64,000 bases of DNA from contig NZ_LT840185.1 of the NCBI RefSeq assembly GCF_900177405.1, forward strand, positions 62,001-126,000, written 5' to 3'. Positions 3,969-35,321 of this stretch are shown piece after piece (within the stretch, counting starts at the first letter, position 1; every line of letters begins with the position of its first letter). The translations under genes were made by a program, and so were the position numbers. Source of the DNA: Allosphingosinicella indica. GTDB lineage: Bacteria > Pseudomonadota > Alphaproteobacteria > Sphingomonadales > Sphingomonadaceae. The notes below the pieces were generated by a model. That model was given only the letters and a program-made list of their open reading frames with translations. It made no database searches and was not told the origin of the DNA.

Positions 3969-4433
3969 AGAAACGACTTCGACCTGACCGCCTATCGCCG
4001 CTCCACGATCGGCTTCGACCGGCTCTTCGACATGCTCGAGGGCCGGATGCGGGCCGAGGCGGGCGACAATTACCCGCCATTCGATCTCGAGAAGCTCAGC
4101 GACGATCGCTATCGCATCACCCTCGCGGTCGCCGGCTTCGGCCCGGATGACATCGAGATCGTCGCGAAACAGGGCGAACTCGTGGTCACCGGGCGCAGGA
4201 CCGAGGACCGTGACGACGGCGACTATTTGCACCGCGGGATCGCGGCGCGGCCGTTCGAGCGACGCTTCGAGCTAGCCGATTTCGTCGAGGTCCGCTCTGC
4301 GGAGTTCGCGAATGGCCTCCTCACCATCTCGCTGGAACGGGAAATTCCCGAGGCAATGAAGCCTCGCAAGATCCCGATCACCGGCACCAATCCGCCGCTG
4401 AGCGCCGTCGAGACCGAGCGCGAAGCCGCCTGA
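3966..4433 (+). CDS. small heat-shock protein Hsp20 (copy 1)
   Basis: ATP-independent holdase chaperone of 155 residues. The alpha-crystallin domain spans about residues 35-135 (YPPFDLEKLSDDRYRITLAV, then the ADFVEVRSAEFANGLLTISL strand region with the family GLL/NGLL motif), followed by a C-terminal IPI anchor motif in RKIPITG that docks into neighbouring subunits. The N-terminus MRNDFDLTAYRRSTIGFDRL is that of IbpA/HspA-type proteins. The start follows AGGAG within the thermosensor hairpin. The protein differs from the copy at 52494 at about 11 of 155 positions, and the leader and start region are also closely alike, so the two are recent duplicates. Confidence 0.95.
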   Translation: MRNDFDLTAYRRSTIGFDRLFDMLEGRMRAEAGDNYPPFDLEKLSDDRYRITLAVAGFGPDDIEIVAKQGELVVTGRRTEDRDDGDYLHRGIAARPFERRFELADFVEVRSAEFANGLLTISLEREIPEAMKPRKIPITGTNPPLSAVETEREAA

Positions 4434-20738: not shown

Positions 20739-22165
20739 AGCGGCACGCAATAAAGTTCGTCGGAGGCATCGCCGCCAGCGCGATCGCGATCGTTCTCGCC
20801 GCTCCGGCGGCTGCCGAGGACTACATCGTCGACAATGTGACGCTGATCGACGGAACCGGCCAGCCCAATCAGCAAGCGATGTCGATCGGCATCGACAAGG
20901 GGAAGATCACCTTCGTCACGCCCACCGCCGTGGCGCCGAAGGTGTCCGGCCAGCGTATCGACGGGACCGGCAGGTACCTCATCCCTGGGTTGATGGACGT
21001 CCACATCCATCTCCAGGGCGCCCGCGGCGGCGACGGCCGCCGCATGGTAGGCAAGGATCCGAAAAATCCGTCGGCGCCCATCCCCGCGACCGCACAGGCC
21101 GACGCCAAAGCGGCCCGTGTCGCCGGCCTCCAGGCGCTCGCGAGCTATCTCTATTCCGGCGTCACCACGGTCTATGACGCGGGTAACGTGCCCGAGCATA
21201 TATTGGGCCTGCGCGCCGACGAGCGCGCTGGCAAGATCCAGTCGCCGCGCATCTTCGCGACCGGCAATCTCGTCACCTATCCCGGCAGCCACGGCGACAG
21301 CATGGCGATCACCATCGACAATTGGAGCGAGGACAAGCCCAAGCTCCTCAAATATCTGGAAGAGCAGAAGCCCGATATCGTCAAGCTCACGCTCGACGAG
21401 CATGGCTGGGGGACCCGCCCGCTGATCACGCTGCTGCCGCTCGATCTGATGCAGGAGATCATCCTGGAGGTGAACCGCCACGGCATCCGCACTACGGCGC
21501 ACACGTCCAGCGAGCTGCGCGCCACCGAAGCGATCTTCGCCGGCATCGACAGCCTCGCCCATCCCGTCATCCAGGGCCCGATCAGCGAGGAATTCGCCAA
21601 GCTGATGGGCGCCAAGAAGGTTGCCATGGCGACCACGCTGACGATCGGCGAGGGCTATAGCCGCCTCGTCGAGCACCCCGAATATCTCGACCAGCCGCTC
21701 TACCGCGCCGCCTACAACGCGGCCGAGATCGGGGAGATGCGTAGCAAGACGCTGCCGGCGTGGAAGGAGCGCGGCTGGACCTGGTGGATGAAGCTGATGA
21801 CGCCCATCGCGCAGGAAAATATGCGCATGATCGACGCGGCGGGCGGGGTGATCGCCATAGCCACCGATCAGACGCTGGGGCCGGCGGTGCATCGCGAGAT
21901 GGAATTGCTCCAGGCAGCCGGCGTGCCCGCAGCACGGATCGTTACCATCGCCACGCTCAACGGCGCCAAGCACCTCGGCAAGGACGACATCCTCGGATCG
22001 ATCGAGCCCGGCAAGCTCGCCGACATGGTGCTGCTCAGCGCCGATCCGACGGTCGATATCGACAATGCCAAGAAGATCGTCTGGGTGATGAAGGGCGGCC
22101 AGTTGATCGACGAGGAGCGATTGCCGCTCGCCGGTGGCACGCAGAACCGCCGCCGCGACTTCTGA
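20735..22165 (+). CDS. second exported metal-dependent amidohydrolase
   Basis: A 476-residue paralogue of the preceding enzyme. Signal peptide at residues 1-27 (IVLAAPAAAED). Ligand motifs: LMDVHIHLQGA (HxH), DIVKLTLDEHG (Lys), RTTAHTSSE (His), DSLAHPVIQ (His) and AIATDQTLG (Asp). ATGA overlap with the upstream stop shows translational coupling, so the two enzymes probably work together on related substrates or as a heteromer. With the MarR regulator, symporter and PLP enzyme next door, a pathway that hydrolyses an N-substituted amino acid outside the cytoplasm and imports the product is plausible; this is inference. Confidence 0.87.
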   Translation: MKRHAIKFVGGIAASAIAIVLAAPAAAEDYIVDNVTLIDGTGQPNQQAMSIGIDKGKITFVTPTAVAPKVSGQRIDGTGRYLIPGLMDVHIHLQGARGGDGRRMVGKDPKNPSAPIPATAQADAKAARVAGLQALASYLYSGVTTVYDAGNVPEHILGLRADERAGKIQSPRIFATGNLVTYPGSHGDSMAITIDNWSEDKPKLLKYLEEQKPDIVKLTLDEHGWGTRPLITLLPLDLMQEIILEVNRHGIRTTAHTSSELRATEAIFAGIDSLAHPVIQGPISEEFAKLMGAKKVAMATTLTIGEGYSRLVEHPEYLDQPLYRAAYNAAEIGEMRSKTLPAWKERGWTWWMKLMTPIAQENMRMIDAAGGVIAIATDQTLGPAVHREMELLQAAGVPAARIVTIATLNGAKHLGKDDILGSIEPGKLADMVLLSADPTVDIDNAKKIVWVMKGGQLIDEERLPLAGGTQNRRRDF

Positions 22166-22919
22166 ACCGATCTCACAATCGACGCCGCGATGTGAGCCGG
22201 GTGGCCGGCGGCCCCGGGGGACCCACAATGTTCCAGGGCGCCTCGTCGTTGAGGGATCGCGCCTCCCCCGCCGGATTCCCGGTGCTGCCGAAACAAATGG
22301 TGCCCCCGGTCGGACTCGAAACAGCTTTGTATCTCGTTGTTTTTGCTGGTTTTTTTGATCTAAATATGCGCCGTGGCCCCATCGATGGCCCCTTATTTTC
22401 TAGGCAGCTGCGAGCTCATCAAACGAGCGACAGACGGACTCACTCCTCTCCTCACTCGGGCAAACCACTTCGAGCTACGCGGGAGATGTCGCGTGTCGGT
22501 CCGACGTGAAGCCGTTCCCGGCTCGGCGGCTCCACATTTTGGACTGTCGTTGGGTATCAGTCCAATAACGATATCGCGCTTTATAATAAGTGGCCGCAAC
22601 AGAGGGATAATTTGGCAATACTCTCTCTGTCTTTATCTCACCCCGGACAGTGAACTAGTAGAAGCATTGCGCGGGCCATTCACTCTGCTAGAGTGCTGAA
22701 GCGCCCGATGCGGCGTCGAGGCGTGAGAACCTCGCTTGTTTAGCCGAGATTCGGCCGGGTGGCCGCCGTGAATGTCCAGATCGCTTGCGATTAAAGACGG
22801 CGGCGCGCGTCCAAGCGCGTTCTCAACACCCGGCTCTTTGCCGGTTCGCCTCGAGGGAAAGAGGCGATGCAACAAGATTTCTATTTCTCGCGAGTCATGC
22901 CGTGAAGGTCACGGGAGCC
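22166..22919. other. gene-poor junction left of the lasso locus
   Basis: About 750 bases with no convincing gene. It contains a tRNA 3'-end remnant (22298-22320), T-runs just to its right (TTTTTGCTGGTTTTTTT near 22340), scattered AT-rich sequence around 22560-22620, and a weak 5-bp hairpin near 22718-22735. The composition change and the tRNA fragment suggest an old insertion boundary. Confidence 0.5.
22298..22320 (-). other. tRNA 3'-end remnant, possible attachment site of an integrated element
   Basis: The complement reads as a T-loop (TTCGAGT), T-stem strand CCGAC, acceptor strand CGGGGGC, discriminator A and CCA. Homology to a tRNA stops exactly at the T-loop: the opposite T-stem strand (complement of 22321-22325, GCTGT) does not pair. 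Tyrosine recombinases commonly duplicate just this part of a tRNA gene. No integrase gene is visible nearby. Confidence 0.6.
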
Positions 22920-23477
22920 ATGGCGCATGACGACGAGGAGATCGCTTTCTGGCTTGCTCTCGAGGGCGATGACGAGATGGGCGGCGCGGACCATACGCTC
23001 CCGATCGCCAACCTCTACCGGGCCCATGCTGCAAGGATGCTCGCATTCTTCGGACGTCGTGCCTCTCGGCATGAGGCCGGTGATTTGCTGCACGACCTGT
23101 TTGCGCGTCTTGCCGGCCGTCGCCAGTCAAGCGAAGTCGAAAATCCACCCGCCTATATGTCTCGCGCAGCCGCCAATCTGCTTCGCGAACGGGCGCGAGC
23201 GGCAACTGCACGAGCGAGCAAGGCTCATCTTCTGGTCGAAGAGCAGGCGACCACGCACGATTATCACCAGCAGCTCGAGCAGCGCGATCGCCTTCGCCGT
23301 GTCGAGAAGGCGCTGCTCGCGCTGAAACCCCGTTCCCGGCACATCTTTCTCGCCCACCGCGTCCATGGTCTAAGCTATGCCGAGATCGCGGAACGCGCCG
23401 GGGTATCGGAGCGGAGGGTTGAGAAGATCATGGGAAAGGCGATTGCCGATCTCGATCGGTTGATGGAACGGGACTGA
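22920..23477 (+). CDS. ECF RNA polymerase sigma factor, FecI-like
   Basis: A 185-residue extracytoplasmic-function sigma factor. Region 2 at residues about 20-85 (LYRAHAARMLAFFGRRASRH then LLHDLFARLAG). Region 4 at about 120-180 (LRRVEKALLALKPRSRHIFL, HRVHGLSYAEIAERAGVSER, RVEKIMGKAIADL), with the helix-turn-helix in the YAEIAERAGVSERRVEK segment. ATG 22920 follows ACGGGAG. It is followed immediately by a FecR gene and an STN-containing TonB receptor, the classical cell-surface signalling trio, here leading into the lasso isopeptidase gene. Confidence 0.92.
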   Translation: MAHDDEEIAFWLALEGDDEMGGADHTLPIANLYRAHAARMLAFFGRRASRHEAGDLLHDLFARLAGRRQSSEVENPPAYMSRAAANLLRERARAATARASKAHLLVEEQATTHDYHQQLEQRDRLRRVEKALLALKPRSRHIFLAHRVHGLSYAEIAERAGVSERRVEKIMGKAIADLDRLMERD

Positions 23478-23478
23478 A

Positions 23479-24402
23479 TTGAGGATAGGCCGGTTCGGAA
23501 AGCGGGAACGCCTGCGCCGCGAAGCCGGCGCCTGGCTTGCGCGACTTCGAAACAGGCCCAGCCCCCAAGACCGGGCAGCATTCGAGCACTGGTATGCCGC
23601 GCACCCGCTTCACGCCGACGCGTTCGACGCCGTGTCGCGCACGTTCGAATCTGCCGACCGCGCGCCGCGGTCCGCGCCGACAGTCGAAACCGGGCGCCGG
23701 CTTGCACCGCGACTCGCGGTCGCTGCTTCGGCCTTGTTCGCCATATTTGCCGTGATGCTCTTGGCCGGGCGTATCACTGGGGACCGGCAAGCCATTGCCG
23801 CGACCCTCGAGACGGCGGTCGGCGAAATCCGGAGCGCTGCGTTGCCGGATGGTGGCACAATGTCGCTCGACACTGCGACTTCGGTCACCATGCTCGATTC
23901 CGAGCAGAACATTGTCCGGCTCGATGCAGGCCGCATTCGCATCTCATCGGATGAGCATGTCCAAACGGTACGGGCCGCGCAGTTCACGATATCCGGGAGC
24001 GGCCTATTCGACATCATGGCGACCGAGCAAGGCGTGGATGTCCGTCTGCTGCGAGGACGCCTCACCGTGAAATCCCCCACGGGCGCCTTGGGTCTTTCGC
24101 CGCCCCAGGGGGCCTCCGGAAGGGCGGACGGACGGCTCGCCCGCGTGACTGCATCACGGCCCCGCAACTGGCCTTCGGGGCTGATCGAACTCGACGGAAT
24201 GACTTTGGCCGAAGTCGTTGCGGAGGCCAATCGCTACAGCAAAGTCAAGATAAGGCTGAGCGCCGCGTCCGCCGGCGCACGCCGCCTGACCGGCACGGTC
24301 CGAGCCGGCGACACCGACGGTCTCGCTCGCGCCGCTGCCGCCGCGCTCGATCTGACGATCCGGCGGACACCGGACGAGATCGTCCTCCGGGCCAGAGAAT
24401 AA
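23479..24402 (+). CDS. FecR-type anti-sigma factor / signal transducer
   Basis: A 307-residue single-pass inner-membrane protein. Residues 1-70 are the cytoplasmic sigma-binding part with the DUF4880-like signature AFEHWYAAHPLHADAFDAVS. Residues 76-96 are the membrane segment (RLAVAASALFAIFAVMLLAG). Residues about 105-215 are the periplasmic FecR domain (TAVGEIRSAALPDGGTMSLD). The last 60 residues (LIELDGMTLAEVVAEANRYS onward) are an STN-like domain that would contact the receptor. The start is probably TTG 23479, one base after the sigma-factor stop, so the pair is co-translated. Confidence 0.9.
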   Translation: MRIGRFGKRERLRREAGAWLARLRNRPSPQDRAAFEHWYAAHPLHADAFDAVSRTFESADRAPRSAPTVETGRRLAPRLAVAASALFAIFAVMLLAGRITGDRQAIAATLETAVGEIRSAALPDGGTMSLDTATSVTMLDSEQNIVRLDAGRIRISSDEHVQTVRAAQFTISGSGLFDIMATEQGVDVRLLRGRLTVKSPTGALGLSPPQGASGRADGRLARVTASRPRNWPSGLIELDGMTLAEVVAEANRYSKVKIRLSAASAGARRLTGTVRAGDTDGLARAAAAALDLTIRRTPDEIVLRARE

Positions 24403-24488
24403 TTTTCGGCCAAAGGGGGGGGTAAGCATCCCCATCCGCATCAATCCCCACAGACGCGCCTGCCCAAGGGCGCGCAGCGAGGGGGAAG

Positions 24489-27059
24489 ATGCCGATGACC
24501 AAGACCTTTCTTTTGAGAGCCAGCGCCGCGCTCGCATTTGTAGCTGCGGCGCCGGGCGGTGCGGCATCGGGAGCGCAGCCCGATGCCGCGCCGCTCGAAT
24601 ATGCACTCGGCGCACAGCCCCTCGGAGCCGCGCTCCGCGCGATCGGAAGCCAAGCGGGAGTCACGATCATCGCGCCGGACGAGCTGGTCGCCGGTCGAAA
24701 AGCCCAGACCGTTCGTGGCCGGCTGACGCCGCTCGAGGCGGTGCGCGCAGCGCTCGGCGGAAGCGGGCTGGAGGCGCGCCTGGCTGGCGACGCGATCGCG
24801 ATCGTGGAGATGGCCGGCGCCTCGGACGGCGATCCGATCGTCGTCACCGGCACGAATATCCGCGGCGGCGCGCCGACGTCGCCGATCGTCACCGTGACGC
24901 GCGAGGAGATCGAACGGTCGGGCGCCACGTCGACCGAACAGCTGATGCGGCAGGTGCCGCAGAATTTTGGCGGCGGAGTGAACCAGGAGAATTTCAACGG
25001 CCCCGGAATCGTTGACATCACCTCGCACGGCGCTGGCGTCAACCTGCGCGGTCTCGGACAGCGCGCCACGCTGGTGCTGGTCAATGGCCGCCGTCTCGCG
25101 CCCAGCGGCACGGGCTCGTTCGTCGATATCTCGCTCGTTCCGGTTTCGGCGATTGAGCGCGTCGAAATCCTCACCGACGGCGCATCGGCCATCTACGGCT
25201 CGGACGCGGTCGGCGGGGTAGTGAATTTCATCCTCAAGAGCCGCTTCACCGGAGTGGAAACGCTGGCGCAGATCGGGACGACGACCCAGGGCGGCGGCAA
25301 TCAGCTCCTGCTCGGCGCCAATGCCGGGACCGACTGGTCCGGCGGCCGGGCGCTCCTCTCCTACGAATATCGCGACGACGGGGAAATCCGCGCAGGCGAC
25401 CGCGACTTTCCAATCGGGCAGAATGAGGATCTCTTCCTCTTTCCCAAGGAGCGGCGGCACAGCGTCTACGGCGTGGTCGCGCAGGATCTGAGCGACGCGA
25501 TCTCGCTGGAAGTGACGGGTACGCACTCCGACCGGCGGACCGACCGCGACTATTATACCGGCGGCGGCCTCATCGTCACCAATGTCCAGGCGCGCTCGCG
25601 GGCAACCGGGCTTGCCGGAACGATGACCGCCGACCTCGGGGGCGACTGGCGGCTTCGCGCCGAAGGCAATTATTTCGTCAATGCCACGCGCCAGCGCCAG
25701 GACGAGTCGGCCGGTCAGGGCCTCGTCAACATCTTCGACACGCGAAACGCCATGCTCGAATTCGCGGCGAAGCTCGATGGCTCGCTGCTCGAATTGCCGG
25801 CCGGGCCGCTGCGGGTCGCGCTCGGTGCGCAGCACCGCCGCGAAGAGTATCGCGACTATTTCGAGACCCAGGTGAACGCCCCGACGATCCGCACCGGCGA
25901 CCGGGTCATTCGCGCGCTGTTCGGCGAGCTCAACATCCCGCTGGTGTCGGCGGCAAACCGGATGCCGCTGGTCGAGCGGCTCGTGGTGACGGCAGCGGGC
26001 AGGCTCGAGGATTATGACAGCTACAAGGCAACCTTCGATCCCAAGGTCGGGATCCTGTGGTCGCCGTTGGAGGGACTCGCGTTCCGAAGCTCCTACGACA
26101 CTTCGTTCCGCGCGCCGCTGCTTCCCGAAACCACCGGCTACTACAATGCCTTCCTCTATCCGTCCGGACTGCTGTTCATAAATCCCGCAGAAGCGCCACC
26201 CGGTGTCTCGATGGCCCTCGTCGGCAGCAATCCGGCCATCCAGCCCGAACGATCGCGCAGCTGGACGATCGGCGGCGATTTCAGGCCCCCGGCCGTGCCG
26301 GGTCTGGAACTGACCGCCAATTATTATGCCATCCGCTTCACCAATCGCATCGCCATTCCCGTCCAGTCGGTGGTGGTGATCGGCGATCCCGCCTACGAGC
26401 CGGTGGTGACGCGGTCGCCCGCCGAGGCGCTGGTTCGCGATCTTCTGGCCGGGGCCGGCCAGGTGCTCGACTTCTCGGGACCGAATTTCACGCCGGGCGG
26501 AGCAACCGCAGACCAGGTCATCGCGATCGTCGATGCGCGGTTCAACAATACCGCCGTGTCCAAGACGCGCGGCTTCGACGTCGGCCTGCGCTACGGCTTC
26601 GCGCTCGGGACCGGGCGCATGAGCGTCGATCTCAACGCCAGCCACATCCTCAGCTTCAAGGATCAGCTCACCGCCGCCGCACCCGCGGTCGAAACCGTCG
26701 ACACCCCCTATCGCCCGCTCGACTGGCGGCTGCGTGGCGGGCTGACCTGGGAGGGCGGTCCGTGGACGGCAAGCGCGATCGTCAACTACAGCGGCGCTTA
26801 TAATGACAACCGCCGGGCGGAGCGCGTTCCGGTATCCAGCTACGCCACCGTCGACCTCTTCCTCGGCTACAGCGCTGGGACCGGGGATCCGGAATGGCTG
26901 CGCGGCACGCGCCTGGGGCTCAGCGTGCTCAACGCCTTCGACCGCGACCCGCCGTTCCTCGCGCCCGATCCGGGATCGGTTCGCGGTATCGGCTACGACC
27001 CGGTGAATGCGAGCGCGCGCGGCCGCTCGGTGTCGCTCCAGGTGCGGCGAACATGGTGA
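24489..27059 (+). CDS. TonB-dependent receptor with STN signalling domain, linked to lasso-peptide locus
   Basis: An 856-residue outer-membrane transducer. Signal peptide at 1-28. STN domain at about 33-105 (LEYALGAQPLGAALRAIGSQ ... LTPLEAVRAALGGSGLEARL). Plug at 115-230 with DPIVVTGTNIRGG, LRGLGQRATLVLVNGRRLAP and the IYGSDAVGGVVNFI motif, then the barrel ending VSLQVRRTW. The STN domain pairs with the FecR C-terminus upstream. Its stop overlaps the isopeptidase start by 7 nt. In isopeptidase-type lasso clusters such receptors are thought to import the matured peptide, so that the FecI/FecR relay senses it. Confidence 0.93.
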   Translation: MPMTKTFLLRASAALAFVAAAPGGAASGAQPDAAPLEYALGAQPLGAALRAIGSQAGVTIIAPDELVAGRKAQTVRGRLTPLEAVRAALGGSGLEARLAGDAIAIVEMAGASDGDPIVVTGTNIRGGAPTSPIVTVTREEIERSGATSTEQLMRQVPQNFGGGVNQENFNGPGIVDITSHGAGVNLRGLGQRATLVLVNGRRLAPSGTGSFVDISLVPVSAIERVEILTDGASAIYGSDAVGGVVNFILKSRFTGVETLAQIGTTTQGGGNQLLLGANAGTDWSGGRALLSYEYRDDGEIRAGDRDFPIGQNEDLFLFPKERRHSVYGVVAQDLSDAISLEVTGTHSDRRTDRDYYTGGGLIVTNVQARSRATGLAGTMTADLGGDWRLRAEGNYFVNATRQRQDESAGQGLVNIFDTRNAMLEFAAKLDGSLLELPAGPLRVALGAQHRREEYRDYFETQVNAPTIRTGDRVIRALFGELNIPLVSAANRMPLVERLVVTAAGRLEDYDSYKATFDPKVGILWSPLEGLAFRSSYDTSFRAPLLPETTGYYNAFLYPSGLLFINPAEAPPGVSMALVGSNPAIQPERSRSWTIGGDFRPPAVPGLELTANYYAIRFTNRIAIPVQSVVVIGDPAYEPVVTRSPAEALVRDLLAGAGQVLDFSGPNFTPGGATADQVIAIVDARFNNTAVSKTRGFDVGLRYGFALGTGRMSVDLNASHILSFKDQLTAAAPAVETVDTPYRPLDWRLRGGLTWEGGPWTASAIVNYSGAYNDNRRAERVPVSSYATVDLFLGYSAGTGDPEWLRGTRLGLSVLNAFDRDPPFLAPDPGSVRGIGYDPVNASARGRSVSLQVRRTW

Positions 27060-29068
27060 CGCGGCATCGCTTGCTCGCACTCGCTTTCGCGGCGGCAGCA
27101 AGCGCCGCCCCCGCGGCAGCGCCGACCATTGCCGAGATCGTCGAGGTGGCCGACATCACGGGGCTGGCAGTGTCGCCCGACGGACTGCGCGTCGCCTATC
27201 GCGTGCACCGCGCCGATCTGGCGCGCAACGACTACGCCCTCGAATGGCGGGTTGCCGAAGTGGATGGCGGCGCCGACCGCCGGGTCGGCGGCGGTGGAGC
27301 GCCGGTCTATGTCGATCCCGGCGCGATCGATGCAGCGGCGCCGGTCTGGTCTGCCGATGGCTCCGCACTTTTTCACCGAGTGCTGGCCGATGGTGCCATC
27401 GGTCTGTGGCGCACCGCGGCGGACGGCAGCGCGAGCGCGCCGGTTGCCGTCCACGACGGGAATATCCGGGCTGTCGTCGCAGAGTCCGGCGGCCGAACGC
27501 TGCGATATGCGACGGGTGCGAGCCGCGCCGCCGTGCAGCGCGCCGAGCGGGCCGAATATGACTCCGGCATCCGGATCGACCCTTCCGTCGATCTCATGCA
27601 GGCGCTGACCGGCGGCGGGATGATCGACGGCAGAAAGGCGACCCAGCGGCTGACCGGTGTCTGGTTCGCGCGTAAGGGGCTCCTCGCCGATACGCCGCTC
27701 ACCTGGCGGAGCCTAAATCTCCAGACGCTGGCGGACGCGTCCTCCGAGGCCCCTCCCCTGCCGCCGGTCGTGTCGCCGATCCAGTTCACGCCGCCTCCGC
27801 TCGAGACGCGTAGCACGACCGGGAATTTCGCGCGGGCGATCTGGGACGACGGACGCATGCGGCTGGAAGTCGAGACCGTCGCCGGTGTGCGCCACGAATG
27901 TCCGCAAACGCTTTGCGCCGCCGGCCGGTTCAGTTGGATGGCGTGGCAACCGGGCCGAGACGTGCTGCTCGTCGCGATGCGCGATGGCTTCCGGGACCAG
28001 ACACTCTTTCGCTGGAGTGTCGCCGACGGTGACGTTCGCAGGCTTGCCGGCGGCGACGGTCTGCTCGCCGGCGATCGGGACGGTCAGACGCCGTGCGCCG
28101 CGGCGCCATCGGCGCTGATCTGCGTGGCGAGCAGCCCCATCGCCCCGCCGCGTATCGTCGCGATCGACATCGCCACCGGATCGACGCGCCTCCTCCATGA
28201 TCCCAATGCAGCGCTGCGTGCACGCGATCTCCCGCAGGTCGAACGTCTTGCATGGGCGTCGGCGGGCGGCACTGCCTATGGGCTAATGCTCACGCCGCGC
28301 GGGCCGCCGGTTCCTCGTCCCCTCTTCATCAGCTATTATCGCTGCCAGGGCTATCTGCGGGGCGGCGAAGGCGACGAGTGGCCGTTCGCCGCGCTGATCG
28401 ACGCCGGCTTTGCCGTCGTCTGCATCAACGCGGTCGACCGGCCCGGCAACTCCGATGGCGTCACCAGTTACCGCGACGCGCTCGATGCAATCGAGAAGTT
28501 GGTGGTGCGCGAATCCAAAGCCGGGCGTGTGGATCGCGACCGCGTCGGGATGGGCGGCTTCAGCTTCGGCAGCGAGGTCACCATGTGGGTGGCGCGCAAC
28601 AGCAGTCTGCTCAAGGCACTGTCGCTCGCTTCGACCCAGCCAGAGCCACATTATTATTGGGCGAACGCCATGCGCGGCCGCATGCATCCGGGCGTCCTGC
28701 GCGACTATTGGGGACTGGGCGCTCCCGAGGCGACCCCCGAGCACTGGCGCCTGCTGTCGCCCGCATTAGACGCGGCGCGCATCCGCGCGCCGTTGCTGCT
28801 CCAGCTCCCCGAGCACGAGTTGCGCGGCGCGACCGAGCTGCACGCGCGGCTTTCGAACTTGCCGACACCGGTCGAGATGTACGGCTTTCCCGACGAGGCG
28901 CATTACAAACTGCAGCCACGCCACAAGGCGGCCGCCTATGCCCGCAACCTCGACTGGTTCCGCTTCTGGCTGCAGGGCGTGCGCGACCCCGACCCGCTCA
29001 AGGCAGAGCAATTTGCGCGCTGGGAAGCACTCGCCTCACGCTGGCGCGGCGAGCGCGGCGAGCCATAG
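27053..29068 (+). CDS. lasso peptide isopeptidase (AtxE2-like S9 family)
   Basis: A 671-residue periplasmic serine hydrolase that opens the macrolactam of a lasso peptide. Signal peptide at 1-23. Residues about 30-400 are a beta-propeller (DITGLAVSPDGLRVAYRV at the start). Residues 410-671 are the alpha/beta-hydrolase domain with nucleophile Ser504 in GMGGFSFGSEV and catalytic His617 in GFPDEAHYKL. The expected acid lies around residues 584-591 (QLPEHELR), where I see Glu587 and Glu589 but no Asp. ATG 27053 overlaps the receptor stop; the 3' end overlaps the convergent cyclase gene by 33 bp. General S9 peptidase is the fallback call, but context makes the lasso role strong. Confidence 0.87.
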   Translation: MVTRHRLLALAFAAAASAAPAAAPTIAEIVEVADITGLAVSPDGLRVAYRVHRADLARNDYALEWRVAEVDGGADRRVGGGGAPVYVDPGAIDAAAPVWSADGSALFHRVLADGAIGLWRTAADGSASAPVAVHDGNIRAVVAESGGRTLRYATGASRAAVQRAERAEYDSGIRIDPSVDLMQALTGGGMIDGRKATQRLTGVWFARKGLLADTPLTWRSLNLQTLADASSEAPPLPPVVSPIQFTPPPLETRSTTGNFARAIWDDGRMRLEVETVAGVRHECPQTLCAAGRFSWMAWQPGRDVLLVAMRDGFRDQTLFRWSVADGDVRRLAGGDGLLAGDRDGQTPCAAAPSALICVASSPIAPPRIVAIDIATGSTRLLHDPNAALRARDLPQVERLAWASAGGTAYGLMLTPRGPPVPRPLFISYYRCQGYLRGGEGDEWPFAALIDAGFAVVCINAVDRPGNSDGVTSYRDALDAIEKLVVRESKAGRVDRDRVGMGGFSFGSEVTMWVARNSSLLKALSLASTQPEPHYYWANAMRGRMHPGVLRDYWGLGAPEATPEHWRLLSPALDAARIRAPLLLQLPEHELRGATELHARLSNLPTPVEMYGFPDEAHYKLQPRHKAAAYARNLDWFRFWLQGVRDPDPLKAEQFARWEALASRWRGERGEP

Positions 29069-30751
29069 TTCGAGCGCGGCGATGTGGAGGATCCGCACGT
29101 AAAGCACGTCGCCAGGTTCGCCCTCACGTGCGAGATAGGTCTCGAGCGCGGCCCGGTCGATCAGTCCGCGCTGCGCCAGTTCCCCATCCAGCAAAATCGT
29201 GCGCAGCGCAGGGCGGTCGCGGACGTAGGTCTTGAGGAAGAGGCTTTCGAGCCGCCCCTTGCCGCGCCGATCGCGCACGGCGGGCGGCAGCAGGTCGGCG
29301 AAGGCGTCGCGGGCGACGCTCCGGTCGCGGCCGCCCGCGACCCACATTTCCGCGGGAATGGCTACGCACGTCTCCATGAGCGGCTGGGCGAGCAGGGGAT
29401 GGACTAGGTGCGGGCCTACTTCCTCGAGGCCGCGCTCGAGAAAATGGCGGATGCTGACCAGCGCGGCGACATGCTCGCGCTTGCCCGCCCAGGCATTTCC
29501 GGGCGCGTCTAGCCATGGGTGGGCTTCAGGACGGTCGCCGGCAAACGCGCGCGACAGGAAGGTGCGGTCCTGCTTCCAGGCTCGCCGGCGGCGGAGACCG
29601 CGACGCAGCGCCATCGTCATGACCCGTCCGATAGGACTGCCGGTGATGCGCGACAGGTCGCCGGCGCACCGTGCTGCGGCCGCAAGCCCGCCCGCGCGCC
29701 AGGCGTCGGCGAGCGGCGCGACCGTGGTCGAATGGCAGAAGATATTATCGCCCCCGGCGCCGTCGATCAGCCAGCGCGCACCCCGGGCGACCGCATGATC
29801 CCGGATCGCCGCCTGGAGGGCAAGGATCGCATGATTGGGTGGTGGCCGGAATCCGGCAGGCCCGATATCCGGCAGTCCTGGGGCGGGATCCGGCGCAAGC
29901 AGCTCGTCCAGCGCAAGTCCGAACCGCTGCGCGACGGCGCGCGCATATTCGCGCTCGTCCCCATCGCGCGTGCTGGTGCGATAGTTGAGCGCATGCGGTG
30001 CGGCTCCTGCTGCGCCGAGCGCCGCCGCGACGATCGAGGAATCGAGCCCGCCGGACAATTGCACCCACAGATCCCGCTCGTCGCGAAAGGGAGCGGCGAT
30101 CGCCATCCGGAGCGCGCGGCCGAGCCGCTCGATCGCTTGTTCCCGATCATCGATACGGGCTTCGGGAGCCGCGAAGGTCCACGGGTTCCAGATCATTACG
30201 GGTGGCGCTGCGCCGCGCACCATGGTCCCCGGCACGAGTTCGGACACGCCCGCGCAGCCGGTACGGGCACCGCGAAGATAAGGATGGAGCAGCCAGCTGC
30301 CGATGAAATCGGGATCAGGATGGAGCGCGACCTCCAGCGCCCGCGCCACCGCTATGTCCGAACACCACACTGTCACGTCGCCAAGGCCGAAGCCATAGAC
30401 CGGAACGCCGCCCGACGGATCGCGCAGCACGGCATGCCCTCCGCCATCGGGCATGAAGGCGACATAAGATCCCCAGAAGCGGCGAGTCAGCCGTTCGGCG
30501 GCATTGGCTGCCGCACCCCATTCCGCATCGCCCGGATCGCACGGTCGGCCATCGGTACGGCGCAGCAGCCTCCCGACGACGAGCACACCGTCCCTGCTCG
30601 AAAGCCACGGGCAGTCGCGCGATACGAACAAGGATATTCCAGGCAGCCGTGCTGCCGGCACGAGGCCGCAATCGCGCAGGCGGCGATCGGCGGCGCGTTC
30701 GGCCACGGCATCCTGCGGCCCGAGCATTGCGGCGTAGCGCCAGCCCGTCAT
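29036..30751 (-). CDS. lasso peptide macrolactam synthetase (asparagine-synthetase-like cyclase, C protein)
   Basis: A 571-residue asparagine-synthetase homologue that adenylates the ring Glu side chain of the precursor and closes it onto the core N-terminus. The N-terminal Ntn-like half begins MTGWRYAAM and lacks the Cys2 nucleophile of glutamine-dependent synthetases, consistent with no ammonia transfer. The ATP pyrophosphatase motif SGGLDSS is at residues 233-239, and LIDGAGGDNIFCHS follows at about 350. The start ATG (30751) overlaps the stop of the B gene as ATGA. The long upstream open extension is ignored because it only shadows the B gene. Confidence 0.93.
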   Translation of the reverse strand: MTGWRYAAMLGPQDAVAERAADRRLRDCGLVPAARLPGISLFVSRDCPWLSSRDGVLVVGRLLRRTDGRPCDPGDAEWGAAANAAERLTRRFWGSYVAFMPDGGGHAVLRDPSGGVPVYGFGLGDVTVWCSDIAVARALEVALHPDPDFIGSWLLHPYLRGARTGCAGVSELVPGTMVRGAAPPVMIWNPWTFAAPEARIDDREQAIERLGRALRMAIAAPFRDERDLWVQLSGGLDSSIVAAALGAAGAAPHALNYRTSTRDGDEREYARAVAQRFGLALDELLAPDPAPGLPDIGPAGFRPPPNHAILALQAAIRDHAVARGARWLIDGAGGDNIFCHSTTVAPLADAWRAGGLAAAARCAGDLSRITGSPIGRVMTMALRRGLRRRRAWKQDRTFLSRAFAGDRPEAHPWLDAPGNAWAGKREHVAALVSIRHFLERGLEEVGPHLVHPLLAQPLMETCVAIPAEMWVAGGRDRSVARDAFADLLPPAVRDRRGKGRLESLFLKTYVRDRPALRTILLDGELAQRGLIDRAALETYLAREGEPGDVLYVRILHIAALELWLAALAAPA

Positions 30752-31338
30752 GTCGCGAGTATCGGCGTGAACGGCCGCACATTGTCGAGACTGTCGTTGA
30801 CGACGCGGCTCCCCGCCTGGAGCCAGCAATGCGCGGCGAACGGCGACAGCTTCACGCCGAACACGAGCGCCACGGCGATGCCGCGCCGGGCGAGCCAGCG
30901 CCGCATCGCCAGGGAATCGGCCAGGCAGATCGGCGGGAGCGGGATCAGGCGCCGCACGTCGCGATAGGCTGCGGCCTCGGCTTCCAAACTGCCTCGCTCG
31001 GCGCACACGGCAATCGCGGGTGGCGCGGCCAGCCGCGCGATCGCTCCGAGCCGCAACGCCGTGCGTATTGCGAGCTGGTCGAGAAGCAGCTCGAACATGC
31101 GAGCGCGGCACTGTGCGCCAGCGCCCTCGCCGATTTCGGCTTCGGGCGGCACAATGTCCGGCTGGAGGGACGCGAGCGGTTCGCCGTTGCGTAGATGGCC
31201 TTGATCGCGCAGCGCCCGCGTTAGCGCTTCTTCGCTCATGCCGGGCTCACCGATCGCGACATAGCGATCGGCGGCAAGGTCGAGGACCACTGCCTGCCCA
31301 TCGACGATGGCGAGACCCGTAGGGTGAGGGTATGGCAT
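30748..31338 (-). CDS. lasso peptide leader-binding and maturation protease (fused B1-B2)
   Basis: A 196-residue protein combining both halves of the lasso B function. Residues 1-65 look like a PqqD/RRE leader-recognition domain (GLAIVDGQAVVLDLAADRYV). Residues about 80-196 are the transglutaminase-like B2 protease that removes the leader, with the expected Cys138 (PPICLADSLAMRRWLARRGI), His170 (SPFAAHCWLQAG) and Asp182 (SRVVNDS). Gene order precursor-precursor-B-C on this strand, ATGA coupling to the cyclase and the nearby isopeptidase all support the assignment. Confidence 0.93.
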   Translation of the reverse strand: MPYPHPTGLAIVDGQAVVLDLAADRYVAIGEPGMSEEALTRALRDQGHLRNGEPLASLQPDIVPPEAEIGEGAGAQCRARMFELLLDQLAIRTALRLGAIARLAAPPAIAVCAERGSLEAEAAAYRDVRRLIPLPPICLADSLAMRRWLARRGIAVALVFGVKLSPFAAHCWLQAGSRVVNDSLDNVRPFTPILAT

Positions 31339-31356
31339 GACGGTCAGCGATGGCGT

Positions 31357-31388
31357 GGCGCGCGGGGCGGCGCATCGCCCCGCGCGCC
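31357..31388 (-). terminator. 13-bp perfect hairpin between precursor A1 and the B gene
   Basis: Arms GGCGCGCGGGGCG (31357-31369) and CGCCCCGCGCGCC (31376-31388) with a 6-nt loop start only 6 bases after the precursor stop. There is no T-run. Such stem-loops between lasso precursor and processing genes are known to favour precursor over enzyme expression by protecting the 3' end or attenuating read-through. Confidence 0.75.
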
Positions 31389-31394
31389 GGCTGC

Positions 31395-31520
31395 TCAGTC
31401 GGCCGAAATGCCGCTCTGCGCCTTGAGCCCGGTTTCCTCGAACACGCCGATGGGGCCACCACGCGTGTCGGTGGTGACGACGCCGAGCGGCACGGCGCGG
31501 GCGTTGCTGTTCTTTTTCAT
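31395..31520 (-). CDS. lasso peptide precursor 1
   Basis: A 41-residue precursor starting at ATG 31520 behind AAGGAGA. The leader is residues 1-20 (MKKNSNARAV followed by PLGVVTTDTR) with Thr at position -2, which lasso maturation enzymes require. The 21-residue core is residues 21-41 (bases 31398-31460), beginning GGPIGVFEE and ending SGISAD. Gly1 would be joined to Glu8 (8-residue ring), matching Glu8 of the second precursor; Glu9 would give a 9-residue ring instead. Candidate plugs in the tail are Lys13 and Gln15. A strong hairpin follows the stop. No homologue is known to me. Confidence 0.9.
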   Translation of the reverse strand: MKKNSNARAVPLGVVTTDTRGGPIGVFEETGLKAQSGISAD

Positions 31521-31630
31521 CGCATCTTCTCCTTGCTTGGCACGCCGCATCGATGCGGCGGCTCGAAGAAGGCTAGGTGCGGCATCCGGAAGCACGAAAC
31601 TTATACGGATGATATTTGGCGATTGTTGGA

Positions 31631-31663
31631 GCAGGCGGGACGCGCGCCGCGCGCCCCGCCTGC
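31631..31663 (-). terminator. hairpin after precursor A2
   Basis: GCAGGCGGG (31631-31639) pairs with CCCGCCTGC (31655-31663), extended by a GC-rich inner stem (31641-31644 with 31650-31653). It begins 7 bases after the stop of the upstream precursor and separates it from precursor 1, mirroring the hairpin that separates precursor 1 from the B gene. Confidence 0.7.
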
Positions 31664-31670
31664 CCGTCGC

Positions 31671-31799
31671 TCAGTCGGCGGTCACCCCGGCGCGATACCA
31701 GAGCCCGCTCGCCTCCGGCATCATGCCGCCAGACCCCTTGGTCGCACGGCTGACGGAACCGAGGGCACGGGATGGCGCCGGCCTATACATGATCTTCAT
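31671..31799 (-). CDS. lasso peptide precursor 2
   Basis: A 42-residue precursor starting at ATG 31799 behind AAAGGAGA; ATG 31790 is a second in-frame possibility. The leader is residues 1-21, ending SVSRATK, again with Thr at -2. The core is residues 22-42 (bases 31674-31736), beginning GSGGMMPEASG and ending RAGVTAD. The only acidic residue in the ring window is Glu8, so an 8-residue Gly1-Glu8 macrolactam is predicted. Trp13, Tyr14 and Arg15 just after the ring are likely steric plugs. Both cores are 21 residues and share Gly1, Glu8, Gly11-Leu12, Gly17 and the terminal Ala-Asp, yet differ elsewhere, so they are diverged paralogues. Confidence 0.9.
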   Translation of the reverse strand: MKIMYRPAPSRALGSVSRATKGSGGMMPEASGLWYRAGVTAD

Positions 31800-32058: not shown

Positions 32059-32472
32059 ATGTTCGCCGAAGTAATCGCCGCCGGGCTCGCCTTTGCTTGC
32101 ACGCCGACGCATGTGTGGGACGGCGACGGTCCGATATGGTGCGCGGAAGGTCCGAAGATCCGACTGTCGGGCATCGCCGCGCGCGAAATGGACGGCAGCT
32201 GCAAGAAAGGACATCCCTGCCCTGCCGCCGACCCGATCCGCGCGCGCGACTATCTCGTCCGCCTCATCGGAAAGCCGGTCGGCCGCGCGCCGACGGGCCA
32301 TATTCTCGTCTCCGGCGAGACGCTCGTCTGCCGCTCGGCAGGATCGGGCAAGGGCGATAGAACGGCCGCATGGTGCTCCAATTCCACGGCCGGCGACCTC
32401 AGCACGGCGATGGCACGCTCAGGGTTCGCGGCTCGGTGGGATCGGTACTGGACTGGGCGAGGGTCGCAATGA
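32059..32472 (+). CDS. thermonuclease (SNase-fold)-like exported or soluble protein
   Basis: A 137-residue protein whose first half reads like a staphylococcal-nuclease OB-fold (THVWDGDGPIWC, then KIRLSGIAAREM). Active-site residues of true SNases are only partly recognisable: the Asp in DGDG and the Arg of KIRLSGI are present, but I cannot place the second catalytic Arg with confidence. The N-terminus is weakly hydrophobic (MFAEVIAAGLAFAC) and could be a short signal. Cysteines are frequent (C14, C28, and others). ATG 32059 follows GAGGGGAG. Probable small sphingomonad nuclease-like protein; activity uncertain. Confidence 0.6.
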   Translation: MFAEVIAAGLAFACTPTHVWDGDGPIWCAEGPKIRLSGIAAREMDGSCKKGHPCPAADPIRARDYLVRLIGKPVGRAPTGHILVSGETLVCRSAGSGKGDRTAAWCSNSTAGDLSTAMARSGFAARWDRYWTGRGSQ

Positions 32473-32554: not shown

Positions 32555-33133
32555 ATGCCGATAAAACTCCTCGCCACCGGACCGCGGGCCTGCTTCGCGC
32601 GCCCTGAATTCCGAACCGCACGTGTCACCTATGATGTGATGACAGCCAGCGCGGCGCGAGGCCTGCTCGAAGCGGTTCACTGGAAACCCGGCATCCACTG
32701 GCGCGTGTCGAGCATCGCCGTGCGCCGGCCGATCGCGGTGCGGGGTCGCGAAATGTTTGAACGCGGTAGCGCTGCCGTGTGGCTCGAAGATGTGGAGTAT
32801 CTCATCGAGGCGCATCTCGACATCGGCGAGGACGAAGAACCGACCGCTGCCGCCGGCAAGCACATCGACATGTTTCACCGGAGGCTGCGCCAGCAACGCT
32901 TCTTTCGCCCTCCACATCTCGGTGCGATGGAATTTCCCGCTACCCTTGTGGATGCAACAGGCTTGGACATAACGCCAACCGTGCCGCCGGGCCTCGCTAA
33001 CCGCGACCTTGGATGGATGCTCCTCGATTATCGATACGAGAAGGGCCGGAAGGTGCCCTGCTTTTTCCACGCCGCCCTGGAACAGGCTGTGTTGACGATC
33101 CCGGATATGAATGGACCGGGCGTGCTTTCTTGA
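32555..33133 (+). CDS. orphan Cas5d-like (type I-C) CRISPR-associated protein
   Basis: A 192-residue protein with a clear Cas5d N-terminus: ATGPRACFARPEFRTARVTY, then DVMTASAARGLLEAVHWKPG, closely matching the Cas5d pattern in which the Cas5 RAMP fold begins. GKHIDMFHRRL carries Lys102-His103, equivalent to the catalytic Lys-His pair of pre-crRNA-processing Cas5d enzymes, followed by FFRPPHLGAMEF. The catalytic Tyr normally found in the YWKP motif is His42 here (VHWKP). It is shorter than usual Cas5d (about 220-240). No cas3, cas7, cas8c, cas1/2 or repeat array is in the window. It could be a remnant or a domesticated RNA-binding protein. Confidence 0.82.
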   Translation: MPIKLLATGPRACFARPEFRTARVTYDVMTASAARGLLEAVHWKPGIHWRVSSIAVRRPIAVRGREMFERGSAAVWLEDVEYLIEAHLDIGEDEEPTAAAGKHIDMFHRRLRQQRFFRPPHLGAMEFPATLVDATGLDITPTVPPGLANRDLGWMLLDYRYEKGRKVPCFFHAALEQAVLTIPDMNGPGVLS

Positions 33134-33233: not shown

Positions 33234-33836
33234 TCAGGGCGGGTCGCTCGCCAGCGCGTGCAGCGCCGCGACAACAAGGTGCGCCGCGCGGCGGCGCCTT
33301 CGGAAATGTTCCGCGATCGCCCGCCTGAGCGGCACGGGCGATACCGCGACCGCCGCGTCCCGCCACGTCTGCGCCTCTGCTTCGTCGGCCGTCCCGAGGA
33401 CGTTTCGTTCCGCCGGCGCATAGGGTGCAAGTCGATCGAGCAGCTGCTCGATCGCGGCACGCTGCTCGGGATTGGCGGCGACGGCAGCTATGGCGCGCAG
33501 CCAGTCTGCCGGCGTTTCAGGTCCGCCGGCGCCTGGATCATCCGCCGTCAGACCACCGTGCGGTATCGCCGACCTCAGGAGCGCGGCGATCCAGTCATAA
33601 AGGTGGCGCAGTCCCATTTCGGTGATCATCGGCGTTCGAAAGCCGTCACCGCGCGGCGCTTCGACGAGACGCTCACCCACCAGGCGATGCAGCGCGTCGC
33701 GCACCGGCGTGATACTGGCATTGAGCGCATCTGCCAGCGCTGCCGGTTCGAGATGCGCGCCGGGCGGGTGCCGGCCCGAGCGGAGCTCGTCGCGAAGCGC
33801 GAGATATACCCGCTCGAAGATTGCCCCGGGACTCAT
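33234..33836 (-). CDS. GntR family transcriptional regulator
   Basis: A 200-residue regulator with an N-terminal winged helix of the FadR subgroup (IFERVYLALRDELRSGRHPP, then LADALNASITPVRDALHRLV, and GERLVEAPRGDGF as the wing). The C-terminal helical domain (about 75-200) resembles a divergent FCD ligand domain; its metal-binding histidines are not obvious. ATG 33836 overlaps the stop of the PhyH gene by 4 nt, making it the last gene of the luxR-luxI-phyH-gntR operon. Ligand unknown; it might sense a product of the dioxygenase. Confidence 0.85.
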   Translation of the reverse strand: MSPGAIFERVYLALRDELRSGRHPPGAHLEPAALADALNASITPVRDALHRLVGERLVEAPRGDGFRTPMITEMGLRHLYDWIAALLRSAIPHGGLTADDPGAGGPETPADWLRAIAAVAANPEQRAAIEQLLDRLAPYAPAERNVLGTADEAEAQTWRDAAVAVSPVPLRRAIAEHFRRRRRAAHLVVAALHALASDPP

Positions 33837-34705
33837 CTCTGTGCCGCGCGCTGCTCGGCCGCATGCGCCGCCACCATCTCCGCCTGATCCGGTCGCAACG
33901 CGTCCTCGGCGCCCGCCCATTCCATTCTTTCCTGGAGAAGGAGCGACGGACAGCGGCCTTCGACATTGCCGAGATTGGGCCGGTGCTGGCGATAGCCGAC
34001 CAGCGCGGCGAGCTCCGGCGAGAAATCGCGCGCGACGTCGGGCGGATAGACCAGCCACTGATTTTCGTAGGGTTTCAGCCAGCCGAGACAATAAGAGATG
34101 ATCGCGCCGCGGCGGACCGCATCGCTGCGATTGGCGCCACCGCCATGCAGCGCAGATCCCAGGAAAACCAACGCATCGCCAGGCTCCATCGTCGCCACCA
34201 GCGGATCGCCGGCAGGCTCGGCCGCAAGGGCTGCGGCGCCATGACTTTCCGGCCAGACCAAAGTCGCGCCGTTGTCGGCGTCGTAGCGAGTGAACGGCCA
34301 CATGACGTTGACCAGATATTCGACCTCGCCGATCGTACCGCGCCACATGTCTTGGTCGCGATGCGGAGCCTGTGCCAGCGCGCCCGGGTGAAGCGCCACC
34401 GCCTGCGTCAGGTTGAGCTGCACGCTATCGCACCAGGGCAAGAGCAGTTCCTCGACCGCCGCCAGGATCACATCCTGGAGGACAAGGCGAGCGCAGTGGC
34501 GCGAGCGGGCGAGCAGACCGCCAAAGCGCTTCGTCCGCTCGCCGTAGAACGGGCCGCGCGAAAAGGCCGTCGCCTCGAAGTCTCGAGCCAGCGCGCGATC
34601 GACTTTCGCGACCAGGGCCGGGCTCACTGCGCGCCGGACGATGCAGAAGCCGTCGCGGCGCAACGCGGCGGCGATTGCCGAGCTGTTGCGAGGGGCGGTC
34701 GTCAT
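33833..34705 (-). CDS. phytanoyl-CoA dioxygenase (PhyH) family Fe(II)/2-oxoglutarate enzyme
   Basis: A 290-residue PhyH-family hydroxylase. The iron ligands are visible as the HxD pair in QAPHRDQDMW and the distal His in FLGSALHGGGANRSD, with the 2-oxoglutarate-binding Arg likely in VRRGAIISY. The start ATG 34705 is 7 nt beyond the luxI stop, and the stop overlaps gntR, so it is tightly co-expressed with the autoinducer synthase. It may tailor the acyl-homoserine lactone or make a co-regulated metabolite; the substrate cannot be read from sequence. Confidence 0.88.
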   Translation of the reverse strand: MTTAPRNSSAIAAALRRDGFCIVRRAVSPALVAKVDRALARDFEATAFSRGPFYGERTKRFGGLLARSRHCARLVLQDVILAAVEELLLPWCDSVQLNLTQAVALHPGALAQAPHRDQDMWRGTIGEVEYLVNVMWPFTRYDADNGATLVWPESHGAAALAAEPAGDPLVATMEPGDALVFLGSALHGGGANRSDAVRRGAIISYCLGWLKPYENQWLVYPPDVARDFSPELAALVGYRQHRPNLGNVEGRCPSLLLQERMEWAGAEDALRPDQAEMVAAHAAEQRAAQR

Positions 34706-34712
34706 GTCCGCG

Positions 34713-35321
34713 TCACGCCGCAAGCGCGTCGGGGGCATCGTCCGACGCGATGCCGTTGGCGGCGAGCAACGCCGGGGTCTCGGCGCAGATCTCGATCTCG
34801 ACCGCCGCCAGGATATGCGATCCGCACTTGGCAGGAAAGCCGAGCGGCCGGCACTGCCAGCCGAACGCGACGATCTGCTCCAGCCACCCGATCTCGGCGA
34901 CACCGACATAATAGCGAATGCCGAGCTCGAGTGCGTGGTTCGCAAGCCCCGCCACCAGACAATTGCGCGCGGCGCGGCGTTGTGACGCCACCAGCGAGCG
35001 ATCGAGGCAGAAACGCGTGATCTCGACGATATCCTCGCCGCGGGGCGGATCGCCGATGCAAAGCTGGGGAAACAAGCTGCCAAGGATGTGCGGCCGCGTA
35101 GTCGGCAGCAGCCGCGCTGAGGCGCGATGCCGGCCATCGTCATCGCCGACAATGACATAAGTCGCATGATCGTCGTCGAACTGATCGATCTCGTAGCGGC
35201 CGGCGATCACCGGCACGTCCCAGCCGAGCAGGTCGACGAAGACGCGCTTTCGTGCCTCGAACATGGTGTGGAGAAGAAGCCCGCCGATCGGTGCGTGCCC
35301 CCTGAGCGTCGACATGGTCAT
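34713..35321 (-). CDS. luxI: acyl-homoserine-lactone synthase (LuxI family)
   Basis: A 202-residue LuxI-type enzyme that makes an N-acyl homoserine lactone from S-adenosylmethionine and an acyl donor. Conserved features appear in order: MFEARKRVFVDLLGWDVP (the RxxVF..W signature), YEIDQFDDDHATYVIV, RLLPTTRPHILG, and EITRFCLD with the catalytic Glu/Arg. The start ATG 35321 has a strong AGGAGG 7 nt upstream. It lies between a luxR and a PhyH dioxygenase gene on one strand. Acyl chain length not predictable. Confidence 0.93.
   Translation of the reverse strand: MTMSTLRGHAPIGGLLLHTMFEARKRVFVDLLGWDVPVIAGRYEIDQFDDDHATYVIVGDDDGRHRASARLLPTTRPHILGSLFPQLCIGDPPRGEDIVEITRFCLDRSLVASQRRAARNCLVAGLANHALELGIRYYVGVAEIGWLEQIVAFGWQCRPLGFPAKCGSHILAAVEIEICAETPALLAANGIASDDAPDALAA

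Follow-up and report, generated by a model that had tools for sequence, protein, structure and literature searches.

The role of isopeptidase-class lasso peptides is called 'enigmatic' in a 2022 review (PMC9266682), which reports GntR, TonB and sigma/anti-sigma genes in the respective clusters. The same question is raised by a locus of Allosphingosinicella indica that lies in a stretch of 64,000 nucleotides (the window, to which all coordinates refer; contig NZ_LT840185.1, positions 62,001 to 126,000), and here it becomes specific because quorum-sensing genes and a structured RNA accompany the lasso genes: does an acyl-homoserine lactone (AHL) induce production, does the lasso peptide elicit a sigma factor response, and does the RNA gate the sigma factor? 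An earlier note made from the sequence had described a complete lasso-peptide locus of the astexin/sphingopyxin class. That observation is borne out, yet most of it is of a type already known; what is added here is an RNA leader before the sigma factor gene and a quorum-sensing flank.

With slightly better than even confidence in the scheme as a whole, we propose that the B and C proteins would turn two precursors into 21-residue lassos closed between G1 and E8, and that this production would probably be under the adjacent LuxRI/GntR module. The lasso may then be secreted and retaken by an STN-TonB receptor, which would signal via FecR to an extracytoplasmic function (ECF) sigma factor; the sigma factor would raise receptor and isopeptidase, and the isopeptidase would open the lasso. 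A vegetative promoter would determine how much sigma factor and FecR is supplied, with the double-pseudoknot RNA leader acting as a gate. Gene set, active-site residues, synteny, a predicted RNA fold and promoter-like motifs can be read directly from the DNA, and the core of the locus comprises the following genes.

22920-23477, + strand: ECF sigma factor, FecI-like, ATG start (TIGR02937, 72.7 bits; Sigma70_r4_2)
23479-24402, + strand: FecR-type anti-sigma factor/transducer (PF16220, DUF4880; PF04773, FecR)
24489-27059, + strand: TonB-dependent receptor with plug, barrel and STN-like signalling domain (PF00593, PF07715)
27053-29068, + strand: Atxe2-type lasso peptide isopeptidase (NF033523, 568 bits, cut-off 400)
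29036-30751, - strand: cyclase C, AsnB-like (PF00733, Asn_synthase, 88.6 bits, cut-off 21)
30748-31338, - strand: B protein, an N-terminal part of ~90 amino acids plus a B2 Cys-protease domain (NF033537, 71 bits, cut-off 33; PF13471, 76 bits)
31395-31520, - strand: precursor 1, predicted core GGPIGVFEETGLKAQSGISAD, ring G1-E8 or E9 (lasso_benenodin, 21.1 bits, cut-off 33)
31671-31799, - strand: precursor 2, predicted core GSGGMMPEASGLWYRAGVTAD, ring G1-E8 (tblastn match to a precursor of the related locus L044, E 4e-5)

All named genes were found at the positions and on the strands given by the earlier note, as judged from the open reading frames (ORFs) of the window and from profile searches: sigma factor, FecR, receptor and isopeptidase on the plus strand converge on C, B and the two precursors on the minus strand, and the 3' end of the cyclase C gene overlaps the isopeptidase gene. 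The source genome is a single contig of 2.81 Mb with one match to PF13471 and one RNA match at E ≤ 1e-4. A phmmer comparison with PDB entries aligned S504, E589 and H617 of the isopeptidase (own numbering) with S527, E610 and H638 of AtxE2 (5txc, E 1.6e-45), which we take, for Ser527 from its replacement in 5txe, to be the catalytic residues of AtxE2. Because the isopeptidase reaches 568 bits and the synteny is conserved, an origin of the whole pattern by chance or artefact was rejected. Cyclase C stays below the cut-offs of the NCBIfam lasso cyclase models (120.2 bits for NF033561, cut-off 300). From the 'fused B1-B2' protease of the earlier note, the B2 domain stands above its cut-off and the N-terminal recognition domain is assigned by position; the fusion rests on architecture because the first 89 amino acids of B are without a Pfam match. 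The stated absence of an ABC export gene was borne out within the window by a regular-expression search, in which an ABC signature and a Walker A motif did not coincide in any open stretch of at least 150 codons.

Both precursors possess Thr at position -2, Gly1 and Glu8, in agreement with the lasso pattern of an acidic residue at positions 7-9, and their family profile scores are below cut-off (Subterisin, 18.9 and 14.5 bits, cut-off 27). They share 34% identity (E 4e-5), which marks them as related, and have similar ribosome-binding contexts. A pattern search detected precursors in 59 of the 66 related loci examined, yielding 60 distinct cores; this census required an acidic residue among positions 7-9 and D, E or N as the last residue. 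When it was rerun without both demands, leaving ring acid and C-terminus free, 63 precursors were obtained from 56 of the 66 loci; position 8 is acidic in 58 of them, and all 63 end in D or E. Each core of the window occurs once among the 60 distinct cores of the 66 loci, and it is in this sense that the two precursors, called new in the earlier note, may retain that name.

Related loci were collected from 397 sampled Sphingomonadaceae genomes, 60 of which (own genome included) encode isopeptidases at E ≤ 1e-110. From 71 isopeptidase places 60 were taken, 5 were already in the set and 6 were left out. The initial set had been formed by extending 12 of 13 genomes above cut-off (G021, with a short contig, was omitted) and adding the broken locus of genome G032; these 13 stretches, the 60 and four others (L093-L096) make up 77 stretches with 73 isopeptidase loci. 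The broken locus (L045) is a decayed lasso locus in which stops interrupt the isopeptidase match, while a copy of the RNA leader can still be recognised on the side of the precursors. Most loci share the order sigma, FecR, TonB and isopeptidase facing C, B and A; C was matched in 69 of 73 and B in 63 of 73. The closest isopeptidases among the other 72 loci are 47-49% identical (L149 with the maximum of 49%, L155 and L044), and the one on a Caulobacter contig 42%. On plasmid NZ_CP032828.1 of Sphingomonas paeninsulae the annotation lists sigma factor, FecR, TonB receptor, Atxe2 isopeptidase, AsnB, B2, a benenodin-family peptide, GntR, PhyH, AHL synthase and LuxR. Since gene set and order are shared by the relatives and by this plasmid, they represent an already known type.

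The assignment to the isopeptidase-type (astexin/benenodin-class) lasso-peptide loci, with a predicted threaded product, is supported, as is the astexin/sphingopyxin membership proposed earlier, by family profiles, the AtxE2 match in the PDB, the precursor pattern and NZ_CP032828.1. Gene set, gene order and AtxE2 active-site residues are as in the astexin/AtxE2, benenodin and subterisin clusters, and a GntR gene before the precursors as well as TonB and sigma/anti-sigma genes beside the isopeptidase recur in the clusters described in the portions of PMC9266682 at hand. Unlike in those clusters, the cores are new and the isopeptidase is at most 49% identical to those of the other 72 loci. In a Sphingomonas strain, a mutant in a lasso B gene was linked with loss of phenanthrene use in 2024, according to the part of that report covered (PMC11006600).

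The response side of the scheme depends on what precedes the sigma factor gene, where two elements were recognised.

22667-22694, + strand: sigma70-like promoter, TTGCGC-N16-TAGAGT, directly upstream of the RNA
22700-22839, + strand: structured RNA leader of ~140 nt (covariance model R1, 136.7 bits, E 2.5e-29 at 22709-22839, the window copy being one of the 39 training rows of R1)

The RNA is thus placed between a promoter pattern and the sigma factor gene. A conserved noncoding block before sigma was visible in the upstream regions, and iterated nhmmer recovered it in 62 of the 77 stretches, including L093, L094 and L096, which had been chosen because they bear the RNA. It lies in sense orientation 5' of sigma in 37 of the 73 isopeptidase loci, 85-247 nt from the start of the sigma tblastn alignment, and on the precursor side in 20. 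Its predicted architecture consists of a P0 hairpin (seen by eye only), a P1 hairpin, two pseudoknots and a three-way junction P4-P6. The modelled structure includes P1, one pseudoknot between the P1 loop and the P6-P4 joiner, a second between the 3' flank of P1 and the P6 loop, and the helices P4, P5, P5a and P6.

Covariation was evaluated in alignment A1, whose 39 full-length rows stem from 36 isopeptidase loci and from L093, L094 and L096 (L121 and short-form elements were left out). Paired cells amount to 97.4% versus 88.0% in shuffled alignments, changes on both sides occur in 31 of 40 pairs versus 12.3, and the covariation value of 0.317 compares with 0.134 after shuffling (reached by 0 of 500) and with 0.043-0.072 in slid controls, in a test that is favoured by the derivation of the structure from the same 39 sequences. 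Outside that derivation set, the first pseudoknot holds in 60 non-lasso copies (0 of 2000 permutations), which were selected by R1, a model that does not treat pseudoknots as pairs. RNAalifold independently recovers P1 and P4-P6. In the 60 non-lasso copies, the complementarity between the 5' strand of P1 and the downstream sequence is not reached by any of 300 permutations either. By eye, many non-lasso copies seem to finish with an extra hairpin. Columns 88 and 109 of A1, beside P5a, contain G-U in 24 rows, A-C in 10 and A-U in 5, as if a wobble-shaped pair were retained.

The pattern TTGnnn-N16-18-TAnnnT occurs upstream of 32 of the 39 A1 copies, where mononucleotide shuffles lead to an expectation of 1.08, and before 16 of the 60 non-lasso copies (1.04 expected on the same basis). 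A structured 5' leader with a promoter upstream, as is demanded of a riboswitch, is consequently predicted here. At threshold, Rfam 15 identifies in the window a tRNA and a ROSE element, both far from the RNA, and at permissive settings the RNA copies tested give sub-threshold matches only.

At first the genus gave the impression of an RNA dedicated to lasso loci, and this candidate was rejected. R1 matches are present in 164 of the 397 Sphingomonadaceae genomes and in 27 of 289 Alphaproteobacteria genomes sampled (the source genome is part of both samples), with up to 6 copies per genome. A hand count gave matches in 54 of the 60 genomes with an isopeptidase; most of the training rows of R1 are lasso copies, and a match is not necessarily inside a lasso locus. 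The RNA is not a dedicated lasso sensor, because many isopeptidase-free genomes carry it before unrelated genes: non-lasso copies (L187-L246) precede SHOCT/DUF805, GGDEF and restriction genes, among others. Around the copies of L094 and L096 no lasso, sigma/FecR/TonB or isopeptidase match was found within 19.5 and 16 kb, respectively. The genes downstream gave no lead to the identity of a ligand, the ORFs being too diverse.

Which genes the sigma factor might serve was examined with a regular expression for ECF-like promoters, one instance of which was read by eye in the window.

24420-24444, + strand: candidate ECF-like promoter, GGGTAA...ATCAA, before the receptor gene

The pattern occurs in the FecR-TonB gap of 27 of 56 loci (48%, versus 8% in shuffles), whereas before sigma its frequency of 15 in 65 (23%) is close to that of shuffles (24%), i.e., there is no enrichment. 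The enrichment is partly post hoc because the expression was composed after viewing the sequences. A de novo motif search before TonB was discarded, as it locked onto the apparent coding end of FecR, and the regular expression was used instead. Since the pattern is enriched before TonB and not before sigma, the sigma factor probably drives receptor and isopeptidase rather than peptide production. As in FecI-FecR-FecA, there is an ECF sigma factor, a FecR, an N-terminal STN-like receptor domain and an ECF-like pattern at the receptor gene; the difference is that the receptor operon here holds a lasso isopeptidase. The recapture, FecR/sigma signalling and linearisation suggested by the earlier note agree with the presence of FecR, a FecA-like STN receptor and an isopeptidase whose active-site residues are conserved, and the motif would place the sigma factor at receptor and isopeptidase. 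As an account of regulation the suggestion was incomplete, because neither the neighbouring quorum-sensing genes nor the structured RNA had been noticed, and we infer that its single loop divides into one arm for production and another for sensing and opening. In the receptor leader (24440-24490, + strand), a run of C can pair with the G residues that form the ribosome-binding site, a fold that is not significant (z -1.65, 15 of 200 shuffles as stable); by eye, the leaders of many relatives have a similar CCCC...GGGG layout.

On the production side, the precursors are preceded by regulatory genes.

33234-33836, - strand: GntR-family regulator (PF00392, 53.8 bits, cut-off 27; tblastn match in 48 of the 77 stretches, own included)
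33833-34705, - strand: PhyH-type dioxygenase (PF05721, 82.9 bits; in 40 of 77)
34713-35321, - strand: LuxI-type AHL synthase (PF00765, 86.4 bits; in 38 of 77)
35398-36186, - strand: LuxR-type regulator (PF03472, 99.3 bits, and GerE; in 43 of 77)
36421-37203, + strand: second LuxR-type regulator (PF03472, 90.5 bits, and GerE)

GntR, PhyH, LuxI and the first LuxR lie upstream of the precursors and on their strand, and Pfam recognises both components of LuxI/LuxR quorum sensing, an autoinducer synthase and an autoinducer-binding LuxR. Among the 73 isopeptidase loci, LuxI is on the precursor side and codirectional in 26, and anywhere in 38. The luxR-luxI-phyH synteny is the same as that known from sphingomonads, once with GntR after phyH, according to the sections consulted of PMC5012321, PMC3704786 and PMC4288048, in whose main text the terms 'lasso' and 'asparagine synth' do not occur. 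In the open-licence literature, covered mostly as titles and abstracts and with subscription papers outside it, we found no account of this RNA in lasso loci or of a LuxI-lasso linkage; likewise, the lasso papers covered in part made no mention of linked LuxI/LuxR/PhyH genes or an RNA leader.

How do these elements act together? A bolder reading than the scheme above, and one that we consider less likely than not, would assign the leader to a widespread and essentially uncharacterised class of regulatory RNAs with two pseudoknots, sRNA-Xcc1 being a truncated view of that class; in the lasso loci of sphingomonads it would act as a cis switch on sigma/FecR supply, with quorum sensing setting production and an RNA-sensed signal setting response and opening. 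Several observations weigh against the scheme as a whole. With respect to the proteins, the STN domain of the receptor is marginal (27.5 bits, Pfam cut-off 28.4), the N-terminal 89 amino acids of B match neither Pfam nor a RiPP recognition element (RRE), and some loci break the order, namely L108 with sigma/FecR on the opposite strand and L104, L108, L144 and L148 without a C or B match. A LuxI match is missing from 35 of the 73 stretches, some of which are short (the window's own stretch ended before LuxI). As for the RNA, it is at neither place in 16 of the 73 isopeptidase loci; the single-sequence minimum free energy fold of the window copy forms P4-P6 and lacks P1; the alternative pairing of P1 with downstream sequence, by which a riboswitch would control expression, is weak in the 39-copy lasso set (reached by 10 of 300 permutations); and R1 also matches 110 of the 337 genomes without an isopeptidase. 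The first downstream ORFs of 57 non-lasso copies are very diverse as well (SHOCT 6, GGDEF 4, FecR 4, Mrr_cat 2, others), the 57 being the 60 copies minus one without an ORF and minus the short ORFs of L195 and L225, with gene starts set heuristically.

This diversity of following genes, together with up to 6 copies per genome and the two placements in lasso loci (37 of the 73 have the RNA before sigma and 20 have it beside the precursors), would also be expected if the lasso locus were the same and the RNA were generic or hitch-hiking and did not regulate sigma, being either a mobile RNA like sRNA-Xcc1 or a small RNA that acts independently in trans. We regard this as possible, though doubtful: in 37 loci the RNA is in sense orientation and within 85-247 nt 5' of sigma with a promoter-like pattern just upstream, and the start regions of the TonB, isopeptidase and precursor genes show no covarying complementarity to the P6/joiner region (336, 424 and 187 of 500 permutations reach the respective values), so that trans targeting inside the locus was rejected. 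Alternatively, the sigma/FecR arm might control precursor production as a lasso autoinduction. Over 1 kb at the precursors, the ECF-like pattern does occur in 42 of 63 loci, at 67% versus 48% in shuffles; this ambiguous excess is far weaker than the enrichment before TonB (48% versus 8%), and the precursor arm has GntR and LuxRI neighbours of its own, so we judge autoinduction to be improbable. Least probable of these explanations, and quite unlikely, is that the peptide serves as a narrow-spectrum antibiotic with isopeptidase and receptor for self-protection. According to PMC9266682, astexin-1 is the one isopeptidase-class peptide with narrow-spectrum activity, whereas the other known members are without antimicrobial activity; moreover, the regular-expression search of the window gave no ABC exporter, and most loci also carry receptor and FecR/sigma genes. 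We retain the proposed division into quorum-controlled production and RNA-gated response as the favoured scheme.

The interest of the RNA extends beyond lasso loci, as it is widespread, had no threshold match to Rfam 15 in the copies tested and points to a possible 5' half of sRNA-Xcc1. The latter is an 88-nt Xanthomonas RNA that was mapped by Northern analysis and RACE (PMC2996969) and is found upstream of symE within integron cassettes (PMC12444791), both as stated in the portions of these papers covered. The window copy has no match to the corresponding family RF02221, and its gathering cut-off of 53 bits is not reached. In register, sRNA-Xcc1 scored 24.6-32.2 bits (E 4.3-0.07) in 5 of 9 distant alphaproteobacterial stretches (L249, L252-L255) and in 0 of 4 sphingomonad stretches. 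Kinship cannot be based on the Rfam score alone, which proves nothing because the unrelated family WsnRNA46 scored better in the same scan (E 2.4e-4, elsewhere in L247).

The case for kinship rests instead on reciprocal R1 matches and on tests of the pseudoknot between P1 loop and joiner. When 30 RF02221 stretches were searched with R1, 24 matches were obtained at E ≤ 1 (best 31.8 bits, E 1.5e-5; most weak), and in 20 of the 30 the match was in register with that of RF02221; 19 of these 20 span all of R1, including the 5' half missing from the Rfam model. The loops of upstream hairpins in the RF02221 stretches complement the joiner (27 copies with a hairpin, 0 of 2000 permutations), P1 being missed in 3 of the 30 copies and its automatic choice being apparently wrong in about 10 more (e.g., L268, L284), which were still counted. 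The three-way P4-P6 core and the pairing of the P1 loop with the P6-P4 joiner are common to both groups. These results suggest that sRNA-Xcc1 has an unmodelled 5' half, and the R1 RNA and sRNA-Xcc1 look like distant relatives in one RNA superfamily with lineage-specific output arms. In RF02221-type loci (29 copies, the mis-registered L263 having been dropped), the P6/joiner region complements and covaries with the 50 nt downstream (0 of 500 permutations), which by eye take in the start region of the next gene, whereas sphingomonad copies are without this feature. The Shine-Dalgarno mimicry that was suspected in RF02221-type loci was not seen in sphingomonads (172 of 300 and 219 of 300 permutations reach the value).

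Each precursor gene is followed by a strong predicted hairpin.

31629-31665, - strand: strong hairpin downstream of precursor 2 (-40.7 kcal/mol for 31600-31672, z -4.62; this stability is reached by 0 of 200 shuffles)
31357-31388, - strand: strong hairpin in the intercistronic gap from precursor 1 to B (-38.1 kcal/mol for 31339-31400, z -2.77; this stability is reached by 2 of 200 shuffles)

Between GntR and the precursors, two plus-strand ORFs (32059-32472 and 32555-33133) are found in this locus alone (1 of 77 stretches); one has no Pfam match and the other encodes a lone Cas5d-like protein (PF09704, 79.7 bits). On the other side, two adjacent amidohydrolase genes (19356-22165, + strand) adjoin the RNA. 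They were considered as peptide-catabolic partners and dropped, with matches in 0 of 12 related stretches examined. The ROSE RNA thermometer mentioned above (52400-52500, + strand; 45.9 bits, cut-off 45) is located at the start of an Hsp20 ORF, and a protein similar to this Hsp20 is encoded at 3942-4433.

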